From Magnetococcales bacterium (lineage in GTDB: Bacteria; Pseudomonadota; Magnetococcia; Magnetococcales; DC0425bin3), in NCBI GenBank assembly GCA_015228935.1, contig JADGCO010000025.1:1-46766 (forward strand): a stretch of 46,766 nt of DNA, given 5' to 3'. A program made the position numbers and the translations under genes. A model generated the notes under the pieces. That model ran no database searches. It saw only the letters and a list, made by a program, of their open reading frames with translations, and had not been told where the DNA came from. Shown here one piece after another: positions 32,929 to 46,766 of the stretch; the first letter of the stretch is position 1, and the number at the start of each line of letters is the position of its first letter.

Positions 32929-35900
32929 ATGTCGGAAAATGTCACCAGAATGGATAAAGAGCGCTCCCGTTCAGCCCGTTTGCGTGGCATCGCGGCCTTT
33001 CGTTCCGCAGCCAAGGAGTTGGCCGAGTTGACCCGTCAACGCCGGGAAGGAATGCAGAAAGCCACCGAGGTCGCGGTTGCAGCGGCCTTGCATGTTTCGC
33101 CTGTTCCGTCTATCGTCGCATCCGTTTCAACCCCCGAATTGGCCATGCCGGCGGTAACATCCTTTGCTGACCCAGGCCAGGTGCCACCCCCAACCAGGGA
33201 GCATGATGGCCGGCCAGCAGTCAAGGCAACTTCCATGGTACCTGCGGTCATGATGACATCCACAATACCGGAAGGAAGCACAGGAATGGCATCCGAGAGG
33301 CGGGACGCTCCTCAACCGGAACGAGGCTCAATTCCGGCGTCCGCCAGGCAAGAAACCTTCCAACCGGAAATAAGCCCAACCCCGATGTCTGCCAGGCAAG
33401 AGACCCCCCAACCGGAACAAGGCTCGGTCCCGACGTCCGCCAGACAAGAGACACCCCAACCGGAAATAAGCCCAACCCCGACGTCCGCCAGACAAGAGGC
33501 CCCACAACCGGAAATAAGCCCAGCCCCGACGTCCGCCAGACAAGAGGCCCCACAACCGGAAATAAGCCCAGCCCCGACGTCCGCCAGACAAGAGGCCCCA
33601 CAACCGGAAATAAGCCCAACCCCGACGTCCGCCAGACAAGAGGCCCCACAACCGGAAATAAGCCCAGCCCCGACGTCCGCCAGACAAGAGGCCCCACAAC
33701 CGGAAATAAGCCCAGCCCCGACGTCCGCCAGACAAGAGACACCCCAACCGGAGCAAGGCTCAACCCCGGTGTTCACCAGGCAAGAAATTCCTCAACCGGA
33801 AAAAAGCCCGGGAGCGGTGTCTGCAAGGCAAGGTACTTCTCAGAAGGTGGCGGAAATTGATCTGCCCCTTGCGGCCGGTCCTGTTTCCCTGGGAGAGGTG
33901 GCCGATATTGTTCTGCCATTGCCCGGGGAAAGGGTTTCTGCACCTTCCCAACCCGACTTGAAACAACCCGTCAAGACATTGACCGAAAAACCGCCCCGCA
34001 AGCCAACAGCGGACCCCTCCATCATCGAAGAGGCAACGCACCCTGTCCTGTTGGCCCTGATGGGAAAAAAAACCGGGCGCAACCGGGCAGGCAAGACTTC
34101 GACCCCGGTCACCCCCCCCCCGGTCACAGCTCCGAACGACACGGTCGCGACGACCCCTGCCACACTGGCTGAACAGGCCCATCAGGTCGCCAAAAGGGCA
34201 GGCGCGGACAAGGAACGCAACCTGCCCGATCCAGCCCGACTGCGACACCAGGCGGAAACCTGGACGACGCACCCCGAAACGGCTGGCTCTTCATGGGCAA
34301 AACCGGAGTCGGTCGCCGTCCCCGTCCGGAAAGGGCGCCGTGCCTCCCCTCCTGCCCAAACAGTACCCTGGTCTTCCTCGACATCAGGCATTGTGCTGCT
34401 GAGTGAATCGCAGCCACCTGCGTCCAGTGACCGGGGCAAAGAGGCATCGGCAGCAACGCCGCACCCCTCGGACACGACCGATCTCATTTCGAGACGCTCC
34501 ACCCGGCAAATGATCGGCCTGGATGTCTGGAAAGGCAGCGCCTCGGGCGTGGCCGTCCTCTCCATGCCGGACTCGGCTCTCGCACCAGCCAACACCCAGG
34601 CAGCAAAAAACGGTTCCACCCCCTGGGTGGCAGCGGTCGGCGCTGCGGATGCCCAGGTTGGCAAAACCGGCCTGGCTTCCCGGTCGGCGTCAGCCGACAC
34701 GACGCCTGCCCAGGTTGACAAACCGGGTCCGATCCCCTGGTCGGCAACGCCCTGCCCAATGCCTGCCCAGGTTGACAGGCCAGGCCCGGCTCCCCGGCCA
34801 GCGATGGATGCCGGGATTGACAAACCGGGTCCGGCATCCAGGAAAGCGACAGCGGCCAGGATTGACAAACCGGATCCGGCATCCAGGCCAGCAACGGAGG
34901 CCAGGATTGACAAACCGGGTCCGACTCCCTGGACAGCAGCAGGTGCCGAAGTGGACAAGCCAGGTCCGGTTCTCTGGTCGGCGACAGCCAGCATGACCGA
35001 TATCCAGGCTGAAAATCCCGGTTTGGCTCCCTGGTTGGTGTATGCCGGACAGGTGCATGCCGCCCGCCGCAAAAGACGTGTGCCGGCCAGCACGATCGCG
35101 GCCATGGTCGGCAGCCGGATTCCCGCCCCGGCAGATGCCAAGCCGCCTCTGGATAAGACCCAGGTTGGGGTGAACGGTGCCATGCCACCGGAAAAGACCC
35201 AGGTTCGGGAAACCGGTGCCATGCCCGCCACACTACGGGCGACAACACCCTGGTCAGTCATCGCCGCCTCTCCGACAGGGAGTACATCCCCTGCGACAGC
35301 CGGTGTCCCGCAACCTGCACCTGCAAACGATCTTGCGCTCCCGCGCCAGCAAAAAAAAGGGCTGCCAGCCGCTCTCGCCCGGACAACCCCGGAACAGGCA
35401 CCTGTGACGCCGGTATCCGTGACGTCGGCACCCGAGTTGAACGCCGTGCGCACTGCGTCGGGACCCTGGTGGCCCGGCAAACCGGGACAGAGTGCCGCTC
35501 CTTCTTCCGACCAGCAGGTCCCGTTTCAGGCTGCTGCACAAGCAGAACCTGAAGAACAGAACAAGGAGACGGAACCAGCCGTTGAGACAATGACCCTCAA
35601 CAAGGCAATACCCGTCACCGGCAAAGGCAGGCCTGACTTTGTCGATCTGGTCAATCATCTGCAATGGCACGTTCCCCAACTCTCCCCCGTCGCGGCAGAC
35701 CCTGTGCCCCCCCCATCCGCCGAGGCGGATGCAGGGTTGTCGGCCTGGGGTGCGCTCGTGGCCCAGTTCGGAACCCGACGTGGTGAAGTCAAGTACGGCT
35801 TCTGCCCCCTGCCGGTCGTTGCGGTCGGCGGCGCTTCGGACCCGCTCCCGGAAGCGACAGCCCAGGAAGAGGAACCGGTGCCCCCTGCGGGCATTCCCTG

Positions 35901-38058
35901 GCGGAAATCCCGCCTGGAACCTGCCGGACTGGTCAGCCAGGCGACCACGGATGCGGTACAACCGACAATCCGGGAATTGGTCGATACCCGGGATGGCCAC
36001 CCCGCCGGCCCGAAGAAAGACTCACCGGCAAAAGAGACCCAACAAAACGCCCTGCCGGAAGAGACCAAAACAGGCACCCCGGCAGAAAATGTGCAGAAGG
36101 ATTCCACGCCGGAAGCAGCGCAGAAGGATTCCACGCCGGAAGCGGCCAGGAATCATGACACGGCCCATGAAACCGGGAAAAACGTCCCGGCACAAGAGGC
36201 CATGCAGGATTCCACACCAAAGGCGTCCCACAATGAGTCTGGATCATCCGCACAGCCGGAATCCCCCGAGACCCCGTTGACGGCCTCCTATCATAAACGG
36301 AGTACGACGCCCCGGATTCCCAACTCGGTCCGGGAACTGGGCGGCTTTGTCGGCCACCACCCCCTTGGCCAATCGATCTGGGGCCTGGTTTCTAAAAAAA
36401 CTTTCTGGAAACATCGTTTTGCAGAGACAGCAGTGCAGGAGATCAAACGCCGGGAAAACTCCTTCAAGGGACCGAAGGTTCCCTTTTTCACCCATGGCTG
36501 GCCCACCATCTACTCGACCGATGTTCTCTCCGGGCCGTTCGGCGTTCTCTGGAACGAACACGCCGCGCCAGGAGTCTCCGCCATGACCATTGGACTGCCC
36601 GCCACCGGGCAGTTCATGCCGGCAAAAAAAACGGAACATCATCCCCTTGCCATGCCGAAGTTTCACGTGGAAGGCATTCTGGATATTCTGGGACAACCCG
36701 TATTCCAATCCCAATCCTGGACCTCGGGGCGGCGTACTTCTCCAGGTCGGTTCATCGCCTATCCACCCCCCGTTCCCGGCAGAAGAACCAAGGCAAGAAG
36801 TGACTGGTGGAAAACAATCAGCCAGGGAGATTCACACAGGAGTTTTTTTCAAAACGCCCACTCCCCGGCACCCGCGTCAACCACCCCTGAAATGGCCACT
36901 GCGGACAACACGACTGAAAAGGAAAAAATCGCCGCTTCCGACCGTGCGTGGCAGCAATTGGCAGGACCAGCGGAAATTCAGAATCTGAAAGAGTTTTTCG
37001 CCGGCTTGCGCACCACCACACAAAAGCCGTTCGAGAATGATTTTTTGTCAGCGACAAAGCTTGATTTGAAAATGGAATCGACGCATAGTACGCCCTCAGG
37101 ATACGGGAAGGATGTCGTTGACGATAGAAATCTGCCTTCTTCCCCGGTCCCTGTGATTCAATTTATCGAGGACAGACTTGTGCCGGTAATAACTTTGGAA
37201 CCAGAGAGTGGTGCCCAGGTGGAGCGTACCCCGGAAAAAATCGGATCTGCGCCCGACAGCAGCACAAGAACGGTCGAAAAATCCCGACCGCAGGCAGCCG
37301 TGGATCCTGTGCCCATGCCGACAGATCCGGTCGCCCCGGTCGTCGTGATTCCGGTCGCTTCGGTACCGGTCGCCCCTGCCGCATCGGTCGCTGCGGCTCC
37401 GGTCGCTCCTGCCGCACAAGTCGTCATGGTTCCGGTCGCTCCTGTCGCACCGGACACCGTGGTTTCTGCCGTACCGGTTGTCATGGCTCCGGTCACCTCT
37501 GCCGCACCAATCGCCATAGTCCCCGCCACCATGACATCCCCGGCTCCGGTGCCCAGTATGGACGAAATCGTGCATGACAAAGCCGGGGCACAAGCCAAGG
37601 CAGAACCTTTTGCCACGGTCAAACAGGTACCTATCGGTGATGACGTGAACAACATGTCAGAAATACAGGCTGGAACAACCCGCCCCGTCGAACCAGTATC
37701 CATCAGGCAGGAATCAGCCAACGCCCTGGATCTGGATGAAATGGAAACCGTACAAGCCCCTGCCGTTAGAACAACACCGCAATCCAACAGGCAGGAATCA
37801 ACCAGCAGTCTGGATCTGGATGAAATGGGAACCGTACAAGCCCCTGCCGCCAAGGCGGTACCGCCCAAAGCTGCCCGGCAGCAAACCGCCCGGAAGCCGT
37901 CTGATGCCATCCCGGTCGAAGACCTGGCCACCGGGTTTGCCAACCTCATGGGAGATGGCGTGGAAGGTGTCGTCAAAGGGGCGTCGTGGCTGGTGGGAAA
38001 AGTGCAGAAAGTCAGGTCTGGTGAGAAAGTCAGGTCTGGTGTGGGAAAAACTCATTGA
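32929..38058 (+). CDS. Giant repeat-rich protein in the mamJ position
   Basis: 1709 residues between mamE and mamK, where Magnetospirillum has mamJ (about 430-470 residues, also repeat-rich, tethering vesicles to MamK). It has no signal peptide, no membrane helix and almost no Cys. A basic N-terminus (about 1-55, ARLRGIAAFRSAAKELAEL) is followed by an exact 16-residue repeat array (about 123-304) and a Pro/Ala/Thr-rich part with an [IV]DKPGPxxW motif recurring about every 16-20 residues (about 590-705). A less repetitive stretch at about 1117-1310, rich in Trp, Phe and Gly, may fold (VRELGGFVGHHPLGQSIWGL). A Val-Ala-Pro run follows near 1465-1530, then two copies of LDLDEM(E/G)TVQAPA, and a C-terminal helix DGVEGVVKGASWLVGKVQKV. 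ATG 32929 lacks a good ribosome-binding site; ATG 32950 is an alternative. A chain-assembly role is inference from position. Confidence 0.85.
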   Translation: MSENVTRMDKERSRSARLRGIAAFRSAAKELAELTRQRREGMQKATEVAVAAALHVSPVPSIVASVSTPELAMPAVTSFADPGQVPPPTREHDGRPAVKATSMVPAVMMTSTIPEGSTGMASERRDAPQPERGSIPASARQETFQPEISPTPMSARQETPQPEQGSVPTSARQETPQPEISPTPTSARQEAPQPEISPAPTSARQEAPQPEISPAPTSARQEAPQPEISPTPTSARQEAPQPEISPAPTSARQEAPQPEISPAPTSARQETPQPEQGSTPVFTRQEIPQPEKSPGAVSARQGTSQKVAEIDLPLAAGPVSLGEVADIVLPLPGERVSAPSQPDLKQPVKTLTEKPPRKPTADPSIIEEATHPVLLALMGKKTGRNRAGKTSTPVTPPPVTAPNDTVATTPATLAEQAHQVAKRAGADKERNLPDPARLRHQAETWTTHPETAGSSWAKPESVAVPVRKGRRASPPAQTVPWSSSTSGIVLLSESQPPASSDRGKEASAATPHPSDTTDLISRRSTRQMIGLDVWKGSASGVAVLSMPDSALAPANTQAAKNGSTPWVAAVGAADAQVGKTGLASRSASADTTPAQVDKPGPIPWSATPCPMPAQVDRPGPAPRPAMDAGIDKPGPASRKATAARIDKPDPASRPATEARIDKPGPTPWTAAGAEVDKPGPVLWSATASMTDIQAENPGLAPWLVYAGQVHAARRKRRVPASTIAAMVGSRIPAPADAKPPLDKTQVGVNGAMPPEKTQVRETGAMPATLRATTPWSVIAASPTGSTSPATAGVPQPAPANDLALPRQQKKGLPAALARTTPEQAPVTPVSVTSAPELNAVRTASGPWWPGKPGQSAAPSSDQQVPFQAAAQAEPEEQNKETEPAVETMTLNKAIPVTGKGRPDFVDLVNHLQWHVPQLSPVAADPVPPPSAEADAGLSAWGALVAQFGTRRGEVKYGFCPLPVVAVGGASDPLPEATAQEEEPVPPAGIPWRKSRLEPAGLVSQATTDAVQPTIRELVDTRDGHPAGPKKDSPAKETQQNALPEETKTGTPAENVQKDSTPEAAQKDSTPEAARNHDTAHETGKNVPAQEAMQDSTPKASHNESGSSAQPESPETPLTASYHKRSTTPRIPNSVRELGGFVGHHPLGQSIWGLVSKKTFWKHRFAETAVQEIKRRENSFKGPKVPFFTHGWPTIYSTDVLSGPFGVLWNEHAAPGVSAMTIGLPATGQFMPAKKTEHHPLAMPKFHVEGILDILGQPVFQSQSWTSGRRTSPGRFIAYPPPVPGRRTKARSDWWKTISQGDSHRSFFQNAHSPAPASTTPEMATADNTTEKEKIAASDRAWQQLAGPAEIQNLKEFFAGLRTTTQKPFENDFLSATKLDLKMESTHSTPSGYGKDVVDDRNLPSSPVPVIQFIEDRLVPVITLEPESGAQVERTPEKIGSAPDSSTRTVEKSRPQAAVDPVPMPTDPVAPVVVIPVASVPVAPAASVAAAPVAPAAQVVMVPVAPVAPDTVVSAVPVVMAPVTSAAPIAIVPATMTSPAPVPSMDEIVHDKAGAQAKAEPFATVKQVPIGDDVNNMSEIQAGTTRPVEPVSIRQESANALDLDEMETVQAPAVRTTPQSNRQESTSSLDLDEMGTVQAPAAKAVPPKAARQQTARKPSDAIPVEDLATGFANLMGDGVEGVVKGASWLVGKVQKVRSGEKVRSGVGKTH
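33295..33840 (+). repeat. 48-base coding tandem repeat (16-residue units) in the giant protein
   Basis: About 11 units encode variants of SARQEAPQPEISPAPT. The five central units are almost identical at DNA level. The flanking units diverge (RQETFQPEIS, RQETPQPEQGS, RQEIPQPEKSP). The gradient from identical centre to diverged edges is typical of growth by unequal crossing-over or slippage, and copy number probably varies between strains. Each unit has two acidic and one or two basic residues and four Pro. Confidence 0.97.
34690..35060 (+). repeat. Degenerate repeats with an [IV]DKPGPxxW motif
   Basis: Within the giant protein, at least seven spaced copies of a motif like AQVDKPGPIPWSA, AGIDKPGPASRKA, ARIDKPGPTPW and AEVDKPGPVLW recur every 16-20 residues, more diverged than the 48-base array. 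A later partner, IQAENPGLAPW, closes the series. The Trp at the end of many copies could give short binding motifs in an otherwise disordered chain. Confidence 0.8.
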
Positions 38059-39869: not shown

Positions 39870-40919
39870 ATGCCGACTGAAATGGTGATACTGAAACTTG
39901 AAGGGACCGTACAGGCTTCCCAGGTGGCCGGACTGGCAGGACAGACCTTCACCGTCGGGAAGGTGACCTCGACCGGAACCGGAATCCATAAATGGTTGTT
40001 CCTCAACCCCGTGCCAGGCAGCGACAGCACGGCCGTCGCCCTGAAAATCGAGGGCACCCAGCAAATCGCCAAAATTTCCGCCTTGAGTGGCAAGACGGTC
40101 GTGGTCGGCAAGTCGCCAGTCGTGATCGGTGGCCTGCACAATCTGCTGGTCCTCCATCCAGCCGGAGCCGCCGCCACCCCCGCCGTGGCCGCCACCATGC
40201 CTGCCGCCAAAGTCGCCGCCAATTCCCAGATGGTCATGCTGAAACTCGATGGCACGGCCCAGGCCGGACAAATCCCCATACTCACCGGCAAGACCTTCAC
40301 CGTGGTGGATCCCCCCATCATGGGTGCCCAGGCCCAAAAATGGCTGTTCTTGAAACCAACTGCGGCCTCCGGTCTGGCCGACCAGGGACTGATCGCCCTC
40401 AAGGTACAGCATGGGGGAACCACAACCATGCCGCATCTCGTCGGCAAAACCGTCCTGCTGGGTAAATCGCCCATGATCGCCGGCGGTGCGGGCAAGTGGA
40501 TCATGCTCTCCCCGGTCGCCACGGGAGGAACCGCATCCGGTGTCACCCCCCTGACCGTGGCCCATACCCAACCCGCTCTCGGCCCCGCCCAATCCACCCC
40601 CGTCATGCAAACCGTGGCCGCCACCAAAACCACGACCACCCTGTCACCCGTGGATGTGGCCGCCAATTCGACCGCTGCCACCTCGGCCACTGCCGTCGCC
40701 GCCAAAAGTGCCGGTGCCACGGCCATTGCCGTGGGCAGCACCAGCCTGGGCCTGAGCCTGGCCGCCTGGGGAGCCGCCCTCCTGATCACCGCCGCCGTGG
40801 GCGTGGGGGTCTACAATTACATGTCCAGAAAAAAAGCCCTTGCACAACAGCAGGATCAGGATATGGAAGAGGCCCTTGCAGAAGATGCCACGGCTGAACT
40901 GAGCCTGGAAGGTGCTTGA
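39870..40919 (+). CDS. mamD: MamD/Mms7-like magnetosome protein with four internal repeats
   Basis: 349 residues. The first 216 are four copies of a module of about 43 residues (6-48, 56-98, 121-163 and 174-216) with consensus (V/A)xLKLEGTxQ...ILxGKTxxVGKxP...KWLxLxP. A Thr/Ala-rich linker (220-285) follows. One membrane helix (about 291-316) is in a Gly/Leu/Ala-rich GSTSLGLSLAAWGAALL context like Mms6/MamD/MamG. An RKK stop-transfer sequence leads to an acidic tail QQDQDMEEALAEDATAELSLE. MamD acts on crystal growth and is bound tightly to magnetite; the acidic tail could meet iron, as proposed for Mms6. The gene symbol is by similarity of layout. It lies between mamL and mamM, not in a separate operon. 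Confidence 0.8.
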   Translation: MPTEMVILKLEGTVQASQVAGLAGQTFTVGKVTSTGTGIHKWLFLNPVPGSDSTAVALKIEGTQQIAKISALSGKTVVVGKSPVVIGGLHNLLVLHPAGAAATPAVAATMPAAKVAANSQMVMLKLDGTAQAGQIPILTGKTFTVVDPPIMGAQAQKWLFLKPTAASGLADQGLIALKVQHGGTTTMPHLVGKTVLLGKSPMIAGGAGKWIMLSPVATGGTASGVTPLTVAHTQPALGPAQSTPVMQTVAATKTTTTLSPVDVAANSTAATSATAVAAKSAGATAIAVGSTSLGLSLAAWGAALLITAAVGVGVYNYMSRKKALAQQQDQDMEEALAEDATAELSLEGA

Positions 40920-45044: not shown

Positions 45045-45707
45045 ATGGGTAGTGGACATACACAGGGGTCGTTCTGGGACGAAATGGGCTTTTTCCTGGA
45101 TGCCACGCTTCGCTCCCTGCAACGACTCAACAAGGCGGCCATCAACTGGTACGAAGAGGCCTTTGCCATCCAGGATGCGCATCGCGCCCGGTATTTCCGC
45201 GAAAAAGGCATCAAATATGCCCGCCAGGGACGGTATGCCCAGGCGGCAAAAATTCTGGCCGATATCCGGGAATTTCTGCCGGAAGATCGCGATCTGCTCT
45301 TTCACCTGGCCTTCTGCCATCTGAAACTGGAACATCTGGCCGAAGGCATGGATCTCCTGGAAAAACTCTATGTAGAAGATACCCGGGACAGCAAGGTGTG
45401 TTCCATCCTGGGCATGGCCTACATTCAAGCCAGGGAGTATGCCCGGGCCGTGACCGTTCTCACGGATGCCGTGGCCCTGAATCCAGACAATTTCAATCTC
45501 AACTATCGCCTGGGCGTGGCCCTGGACAATCTGGAACGCTACCCCGATGCCGTGGAAGCCTTCCAGCTTGCCCTGAAAATCCGCCCCAATGAACCCCGGG
45601 TCTACCGGGCCATGGGGTTTGCCCTGGAACAGATGGGGGCGCGGGAACAGGCTGTACAGTTGTTCAAACGGGCGACACAATTGGAAGAGGGTGGGCAGGC
45701 GGTCTGA
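45045..45707 (+). CDS. mamA: MamA, TPR scaffold protein of the magnetosome surface
   Basis: 220 residues, soluble and almost entirely tetratricopeptide repeats. Five units can be followed, for example REKGIKYARQGRYAQAAKIL, AFCHLKLEHLAEGMDLLEKL, GMAYIQAREYARAVTVLTDA, GVALDNLERYPDAVEAFQLA and GFALEQMGAREQAVQLFKRA. MamA self-assembles into a coat on the cytosolic face of the magnetosome and can be needed for vesicle activation. ATG 45045 gives the normal length (about 217 in Magnetospirillum); the frame is open further upstream but overlaps mamP. It starts 11 bases after the mamP stop. Confidence 0.95.
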   Translation: MGSGHTQGSFWDEMGFFLDATLRSLQRLNKAAINWYEEAFAIQDAHRARYFREKGIKYARQGRYAQAAKILADIREFLPEDRDLLFHLAFCHLKLEHLAEGMDLLEKLYVEDTRDSKVCSILGMAYIQAREYARAVTVLTDAVALNPDNFNLNYRLGVALDNLERYPDAVEAFQLALKIRPNEPRVYRAMGFALEQMGAREQAVQLFKRATQLEEGGQAV

Positions 45708-45749
45708 TACGCGCACCACACCGCGATTTTCTGACCGACAAGGTGGACG

Positions 45750-46766
45750 GTGGCGAAGCTTTCCGAAGTGACCATTGACTGGGACGAGTCGCAGCCAACT
45801 CCTGGAAAAACCAGGAGCAATCTCTATTTTTTCCCCAATCTGACCCGACGTGACGCCGCTTTGGCCGCACCGGACGGTGTGCCACCTCGCCAACCGTTGG
45901 CGCTTTTGGACAAGGACGTTGCCGCTCCCACGCTCGAAGAACGTGTGGCGGCCATCGTGGCCCGCCTGTGGCGAGAAAATCCCTCCGGGTTGCTGCAACC
46001 GATGGCAGGTGCCTGGCGGTCGCCGGCTGCCGGAAAAGTGACGGACACCTTTTCTCCGCCCGATGCTGCTGCCAAATGGGCCAAAAGAAAAAAACAGGTT
46101 TCCCACCCGGCGGTTCTCGCAGCCATGGCGGCATTCATGAAACAGGCCGTGCAATCCGTCCCGTTGCCCGACCCCTTGCCGGCCACCCGCACGAGGCAAC
46201 CCGTCCCGAATCTGCCCGAACCCATGGCCGCACCTGCAACCACGGTGGCCGTGCAATCCATCCCGATGGAACCATCCGGACCATTGGCCGAACCCATCGT
46301 GGCCACGGTTGCCATGCATCCCATCCCGGTGATGACATCCGGACCGGAAATGGCAACCTTGCTCGTCACGGCATCGGTGCATACGGTCCAGGCAGATGCA
46401 CCGGAGCCGACGATTGAACCATTCCCGACGCTGATCGTGCCGGACAGGATCCCCCTGGATGAACCAGGGCCGACAGGTGAACCATTTCCGACGCTGTTCA
46501 GTCCGGAAAGAATCCAGCCGAACCCGTCAGGGCCGGCGGTTGAATTTTTGCCGACACGGGTCATGCCGGAGAGGATCCCCCTGGATGGACCGGAACCGGT
46601 GGTCGCGTCCCAACCCGCCCACACCGTGCCAGACGTGGATCCCATCGTGCAGTCGGAACCGGTGGTCGCGTCCCAACCCACCCACACCGTGCCAGACGTG
46701 GATCCCATCGCGCAGTCGGAACCGGTGGTCGCGTCCCAACCCACCCACACCGTGCCAGACGTGGAT
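45750..46766 (+). CDS. Repeat-rich protein of unknown function after mamA, incomplete at the 3' end
   Basis: An open frame of at least 339 codons begins at GTG 45750, with AAGG (45740-45743) six bases upstream, 42 bases after the mamA stop, and has no stop before the window ends. I do not recognise a family. The first 135 residues are mixed and charged, with a helical segment (APTLEERVAAIVARLWREN) and later AKWAKRKKQVSHPAVLAAMAAF. After that the protein is Pro/Val/Thr-rich with a 21-residue period that becomes nearly exact at the end. It has no signal peptide and no membrane helix. In position it replaces what is usually mamQ after mamA, though mamQ may still follow downstream. In style it resembles the giant mamJ-position protein. 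Confidence 0.75.
   Translation, partial: MAKLSEVTIDWDESQPTPGKTRSNLYFFPNLTRRDAALAAPDGVPPRQPLALLDKDVAAPTLEERVAAIVARLWRENPSGLLQPMAGAWRSPAAGKVTDTFSPPDAAAKWAKRKKQVSHPAVLAAMAAFMKQAVQSVPLPDPLPATRTRQPVPNLPEPMAAPATTVAVQSIPMEPSGPLAEPIVATVAMHPIPVMTSGPEMATLLVTASVHTVQADAPEPTIEPFPTLIVPDRIPLDEPGPTGEPFPTLFSPERIQPNPSGPAVEFLPTRVMPERIPLDGPEPVVASQPAHTVPDVDPIVQSEPVVASQPTHTVPDVDPIAQSEPVVASQPTHTVPDVD
46410..46766 (+). repeat. 63-base coding tandem repeat (21-residue units) at the window end
   Basis: Units start at 46410, 46473, 46536, 46599, 46662 and 46725. The first three read like TIEPFPTLIVPDRIPLDEPGP; the last three are nearly identical copies of VVASQPTHTVPDVDPIAQSEP, the final one cut by the window end. Weaker 21-residue spacing can be traced back to about 46230. 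The array probably continues beyond the window. Confidence 0.93.

Follow-up and report, generated by a model that had tools for sequence, protein, structure and literature searches.

A proline-rich open reading frame directly after mamA in a Magnetococcales magnetosome cluster, a candidate N-terminal part of a long MamA-like tether protein

The open frame behind mamA and its gene neighbourhood

The window analysed here is a stretch of 46,766 bases from a Magnetococcales bacterium and corresponds to one complete contig (G000:C25:1-46766). Its forward strand carries a series of magnetosome genes, comprising a proline-rich ORF of 1709 amino acids (32929-38058), the actin-like mamK, mamM with a cation efflux domain, mamO with trypsin and TauE domains, mamP with magnetochrome and PDZ domains, and the TPR gene mamA. 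Apart from mamA, gene names were assigned from Pfam domains and gene order. The mamA gene (45045..45707, + strand) encodes a TPR protein of 220 aa, which is recognized by the Pfam TPR models and matches the NCBIfam model NF040959 over its full length with 195.2 bits; it is the proposed docking partner of the protein described below. Relatives of the 1709-aa ORF occupy the same slot before mamK in genome G003, where about 180 residues align with 39% identity, and short pieces upstream in the MC-1-like genome G037 match it as well, the C-terminal GFANLMGDGVE region being kept in both. At 39870-40919 (+) the window also encodes a 349-aa protein without Pfam match, whose glycine/leucine-rich end resembles those in proteins of other magnetosome loci.

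Directly downstream of mamA an open frame, here called ORF339+, starts with GTG at position 45750, 42 nt past the mamA stop at 45707, and runs for 339 codons without a stop to position 46766 (45750..46766, + strand). The sequence AAGGTGG (45740..45746, +), read 3 nt 5' of the GTG, is a possible ribosome-binding site. Because the window is the whole contig, ORF339+ lacks a stop due to the limit of the assembly. Since the reverse strand also has long open frames (313 aa), openness alone is weak coding evidence for ORF339+. Using a codon scoring learned from other mam genes, ORF339+ reached 0.169, the best value of all six frames (runner-up 0.033), the other forward frames contain 7 and 6 stops against none in ORF339+, and its GC content by codon position (0.68/0.52/0.68) is like that of the neighbouring genes. 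ORF339+ is a genuine coding frame and no artefact. This confirms the initial annotation, which had described a GTG-started frame of at least 339 codons 42 bases behind mamA. Its suspicion that a routine gene caller could miss the frame was not confirmed; gene callers commonly accept GTG starts and genes at contig edges.

From residue 158 onwards ORF339+ consists of nine proline-rich repeats (46221..46766, +), one unit of 20 residues followed by 21-residue units up to the end, where the last one is cut. The repeats develop from degenerate to near-perfect, with the identity between neighbouring units climbing to 0.90 and 1.00 at the contig edge, as had been noticed in the initial annotation. At the DNA level, Tandem Repeats Finder (TRF) detected a 63-bp unit in 2.8 copies with 98% match at 46591-46766 (+), and the assembly therefore stopped within this array of near-identical repeats. 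In the degenerate part (residues 158-281) none of 5000 shuffles reached the observed identity at lag 21, and no such period is found in residues 1-157. When the repeat was searched against its own genome, only short chance matches were detected elsewhere.

The protein is large, proline-rich and free of membrane-like stretches (highest 19-residue hydropathy 1.28), which bears out an earlier description of this operon member. It is mildly acidic with a net charge of -14 and is not called disordered by the charge-hydropathy index (0.152). Library searches with ORF339+ returned no family from Pfam, NCBIfam or PHROGs, including no match to the MamA model NF040959 in NCBIfam and no TPR repeats in Pfam, and the best PDB match had an E-value of 0.84. 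The AlphaFold model has a pLDDT of 37.9 on an alignment of two sequences and says nothing on the fold; as the alignment is so shallow, the low confidence is no proof of disorder. A kinship between ORF339+ and the 1709-aa protein was rejected (best E 1.4). The idea that these two proteins form a paired scaffold thus finds no sequence support, as they have only the proline-rich composition and the operon in common.

Long proteins behind mamA in the Magnetococcales

MamA was detected at E <= 1e-20 in 43 of the 48 genomes of the order. The genome G042 has three mamA matches on three contigs (C28, C32, C119). In total 40 distinct mamA loci were examined (41 locus rows, of which L022 and L091 denote a single position and were counted once), and since six of them were chosen by hand in addition to the 34 taken from genome contigs, the sample is not random. 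At 14 of the 40 loci an ORF of 610-1106 aa begins 2-265 bp after mamA, normally before mamQ-mamB; one of these (L096) leaves its contig at 685 codons. At 24 loci mamQ follows mamA directly (-21 to +237 bp) without a long ORF. Of the remaining two, L102 has other genes inserted after mamA and a similar long ORF further on, as judged by eye from the first residues, and L115 has neither a long ORF nor mamQ after mamA. No long ORF follows mamA in three magnetotactic genomes outside the order (G122, G152, G290). ORF339+, a large ORF on the same strand directly after mamA with a gap of 42 bp, takes the same position.

Thirteen of the long ORFs have their C-terminus present. For 10 of them NF040959 was the best NCBIfam match of the C-terminus with 48-155 bits. 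None of these scores attains the curated cut-off of 200, and neither does that of the MamA in the window (195.2). These matches span nearly the whole model, including the N-terminal segment of MamA, whereas the C-termini of L050, L051 and L089 gave no NF040959 match. With an HMM built from MamA residues 1-46, frames at nine of these loci ranked directly behind the MamAs among 14,318 frames, while L089 appeared only with E=13. The AlphaFold model of the L106 C-terminus (pLDDT 86.8) matches the MamA structure 3as5 with a TMt of 0.85; designed TPR proteins rank as high as MamA, and the fold by itself would therefore not tell MamA apart from other TPR proteins.

The extensions in front of these C-termini are long, aromatic-poor and often strongly acidic (net charge to -98), and their composition is conserved across the family but not their sequence. 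We read the family as a paralogue of MamA to whose N-terminus a very long, disordered extension has been added that expands by repeats. The positional family, its C-terminal relation to MamA and the membership of ORF339+ are well supported. ORF339+ is not simply an unknown protein, as it had been called at first, because in other families this slot is filled by MamA-like proteins with TPRs, which appear in print as 'HP' or 'mamA-like' (PMC3934378, PMC6783814).

The form of the window's genus and its probable other end

Within the window's genus, g1, all three members (the window, G002 and G003) have a common N-terminal motif, LEERVAAIVARLWRENPSGLLQPMA, at residues 62-86 of ORF339+ (45933..46007, +), which is predicted to be helical. 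An HMM built from G002 and G003 found ORF339+ first among the frames outside its build set (E=1e-7; 14,318 frames, leave-one-out), and BLASTP of ORF339+ against G002 gave E=2e-6. When the AlphaFold model is divided into blocks of ten residues, only those of residues 61-80 exceed a mean pLDDT of 50. The initial annotation had made its proposal dependent on conservation of residues 1-135 in related clusters, and by the HMM result the N-terminal region is kept in the sister clusters. In Magnetococcaceae the motif was not found.

Also common to G002 and G003 are a MamA-type helix at the C-terminus and two further motifs, ESV.FISRLI in the inner part and WDWESLL.P. Their ORF after mamA is open for 610-624 codons. 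G003 has partial TPRs and G002 has none, and outside the short motifs sequence conservation is very low, but N- and C-terminal motifs are kept in divergent species. In neither genome does mamQ follow the long ORF on its contig; at L086 (G002:C3) and L087 (G003:C103) mamQ-mamB are found at a distance from mamA, after unrelated genes, which suggests rearrangement within the genus.

In the window's genome mamQ and mamB are located on contig C149. Reading the sequence preceding mamQ revealed that this contig starts, in the reading direction of mamQ-mamB, with an open repeat frame ending in GWSHWGSAFLSASRNLFKATLNWYRERF, whose stop lies 20 bp before mamQ (C-terminal sequence also given as GWSHWGSAFLSASRNLFKATLNWYRERFGKKLS). 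No TPR repeats are visible in this tail. Against the motif of G002 and G003 it scored 12.7 bits (E=0.079, rank 8 of 14,318 frames), a score reached by none of 5000 shuffles; against a five-species motif the match was weaker (E=3.8, rank 54), its score being reached by 3 of 5000 shuffles. Neither a read nor a contig connects C25 with C149. The genome G008 breaks inside the same gene: L096 (G008:C116) ends in it, and L161 (G008:C68) opens with the MamA-like tail, behind which lie mamQ and mamB. Given that the tail stands before mamQ, that repeats occur at the ends of both contigs and that G008 offers a precedent, C149 probably carries the other end of the ORF339+ gene. The earlier expectation that mamQ and mamB come next probably holds, both genes being found behind a matching tail, although the contigs are unjoined and the order differs in G002 and G003.

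A candidate MamA-derived tether and its relation to known systems

Taken together, we consider it moderately probable that the long mamA-like protein of genus g1 begins with ORF339+, and that this protein is a MamA-derived tether with a MamA-docking segment at the end of a long disordered linker. In this genus the TPR body is largely gone and a C-terminal segment matching the N-terminal ~40 residues of MamA stays. According to the structural literature MamA surrounds magnetosome vesicles (PMC3905215) and self-assembles, its first helix being of importance for self-assembly, the first 41 residues, a putative TPR, are missing from the crystallized forms, and the concave face is mainly positive (PMC3905215, PMC4482739). 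The segment kept in the window's genus corresponds to the part that was removed in the MamA crystals, and docking on MamA is therefore proposed. We infer a mechanism in which the C-terminal segment would dock on the magnetosome's MamA coat in the way that MamA subunits recognize one another, the proline-rich repeats would provide a flexible spacer whose length can be adjusted, and the conserved N-terminal helix motif may bind a second partner, such as the MamK filament, an adjacent magnetosome or a further protein of the coat. As the N-terminal motif was not found in Magnetococcaceae, this proposed second contact would not be conserved across the family. The mainly positive concave face of MamA together with the often strongly acidic extensions of the family counts for a tether, whereas the only mildly acidic charge of ORF339+ and its charge-hydropathy index count against it.

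The same observations could be read differently. The long ORF might be a duplicate of mamA whose TPR domain disappeared in genus g1 and which drifts as a repeat-swollen remnant without function, which would agree with the partial TPRs of G003 and their absence from G002, with the very low conservation outside short motifs and with the 24 of 40 loci where mamQ directly follows mamA without such an ORF. A frame that stays open for more than 600 codons in G002 and G003 and for at least 339 in the window, that has the codon pattern of a real gene and that retains its terminal motifs in divergent species makes such decay unlikely. The protein may also be an accessory subunit of the MamA coat that has no second partner and co-assembles with MamA, its disordered chain forming an entropic brush or recruiting clients around the vesicle. 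The MamA-type segment or domain at the C-terminus, an extension conserved in composition but not in sequence and the location of MamA around the vesicles all fit this idea; since the N-terminal motif conserved in genus g1 suggests a specific second contact, we hold it to be rather improbable.

A further doubt concerns C149, whose tail might come from a different protein, so that ORF339+ would continue elsewhere, perhaps with a full TPR domain. The two contigs have no physical link and the match of the tail is modest. On the other hand, the tail stands before mamQ as in other families, and a search of the window's own genome with the C-terminus of G003 detected no further such tail (best E 0.387), a search that did not report C149 either; a separate origin of the tail thus appears to have a small chance. 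A MamA-derived tether with its other end on C149 remains the explanation we prefer.

In the open-access literature, a scope outside which most subscription papers fall, no description of this family architecture was found. As far as that literature goes, the architecture, its spread over the examined loci, the TPR-poor form of the genus and the probable missing end are new. A long tether derived from MamA is a concrete candidate that can be tested in cultured Magnetococcus marinus MC-1, and in the TPR-poor variant a single short segment is left as the part predicted to dock, for which peptides can serve as the test.

The closest counterparts in print come from M. marinus MC-1 and Magnetofaba australis IT-1, for which PMC3934378 lists an 'HP' that separates mamA and mamQ, and from PMC6783814, which mentions a 'mamA-like gene inside the mamAB cluster' and gives it as absent from UR-1 and related strains. 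We equate these genes with the ORFs compared here from position and lineage; G037 is taken to be MC-1. They share the position after mamA and a long, low-complexity sequence with the genus g1 protein, and also a C-terminal MamA-type segment, judged from G002, G003 and the probable tail on C149. The MC-1 and IT-1 families differ in having C-terminal MamA-like TPRs and an acidic extension, whereas the proteins of genus g1 have incomplete TPRs or none, with an extension that is proline-rich and nearly neutral. MamA itself (NF040959; PDB 3AS5, 3AS8, 3VTX) aligns with the C-terminal domain of the family over nearly its whole length, the segment before the TPRs included, but with about 220 aa and five TPRs it has no extension, and ORF339+ by itself has no MamA match.

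With MamJ of Magnetospirillum and the MamJ-like Mg-1g50 of MV-1 the resemblance is only one of how they work, by description. MamJ, an adaptor with repeats, links magnetosomes to MamK, and the MamJ-like adaptor in MV-1 had been overlooked (both in PMC10653835); mamJ and mamY were reported as not found in these bacteria in PMC6783814. The tether proposed here would likewise be a repeat-bearing protein of the magnetosome, but the gene for MamJ lies before mamK and that for ORF339+ after mamA.
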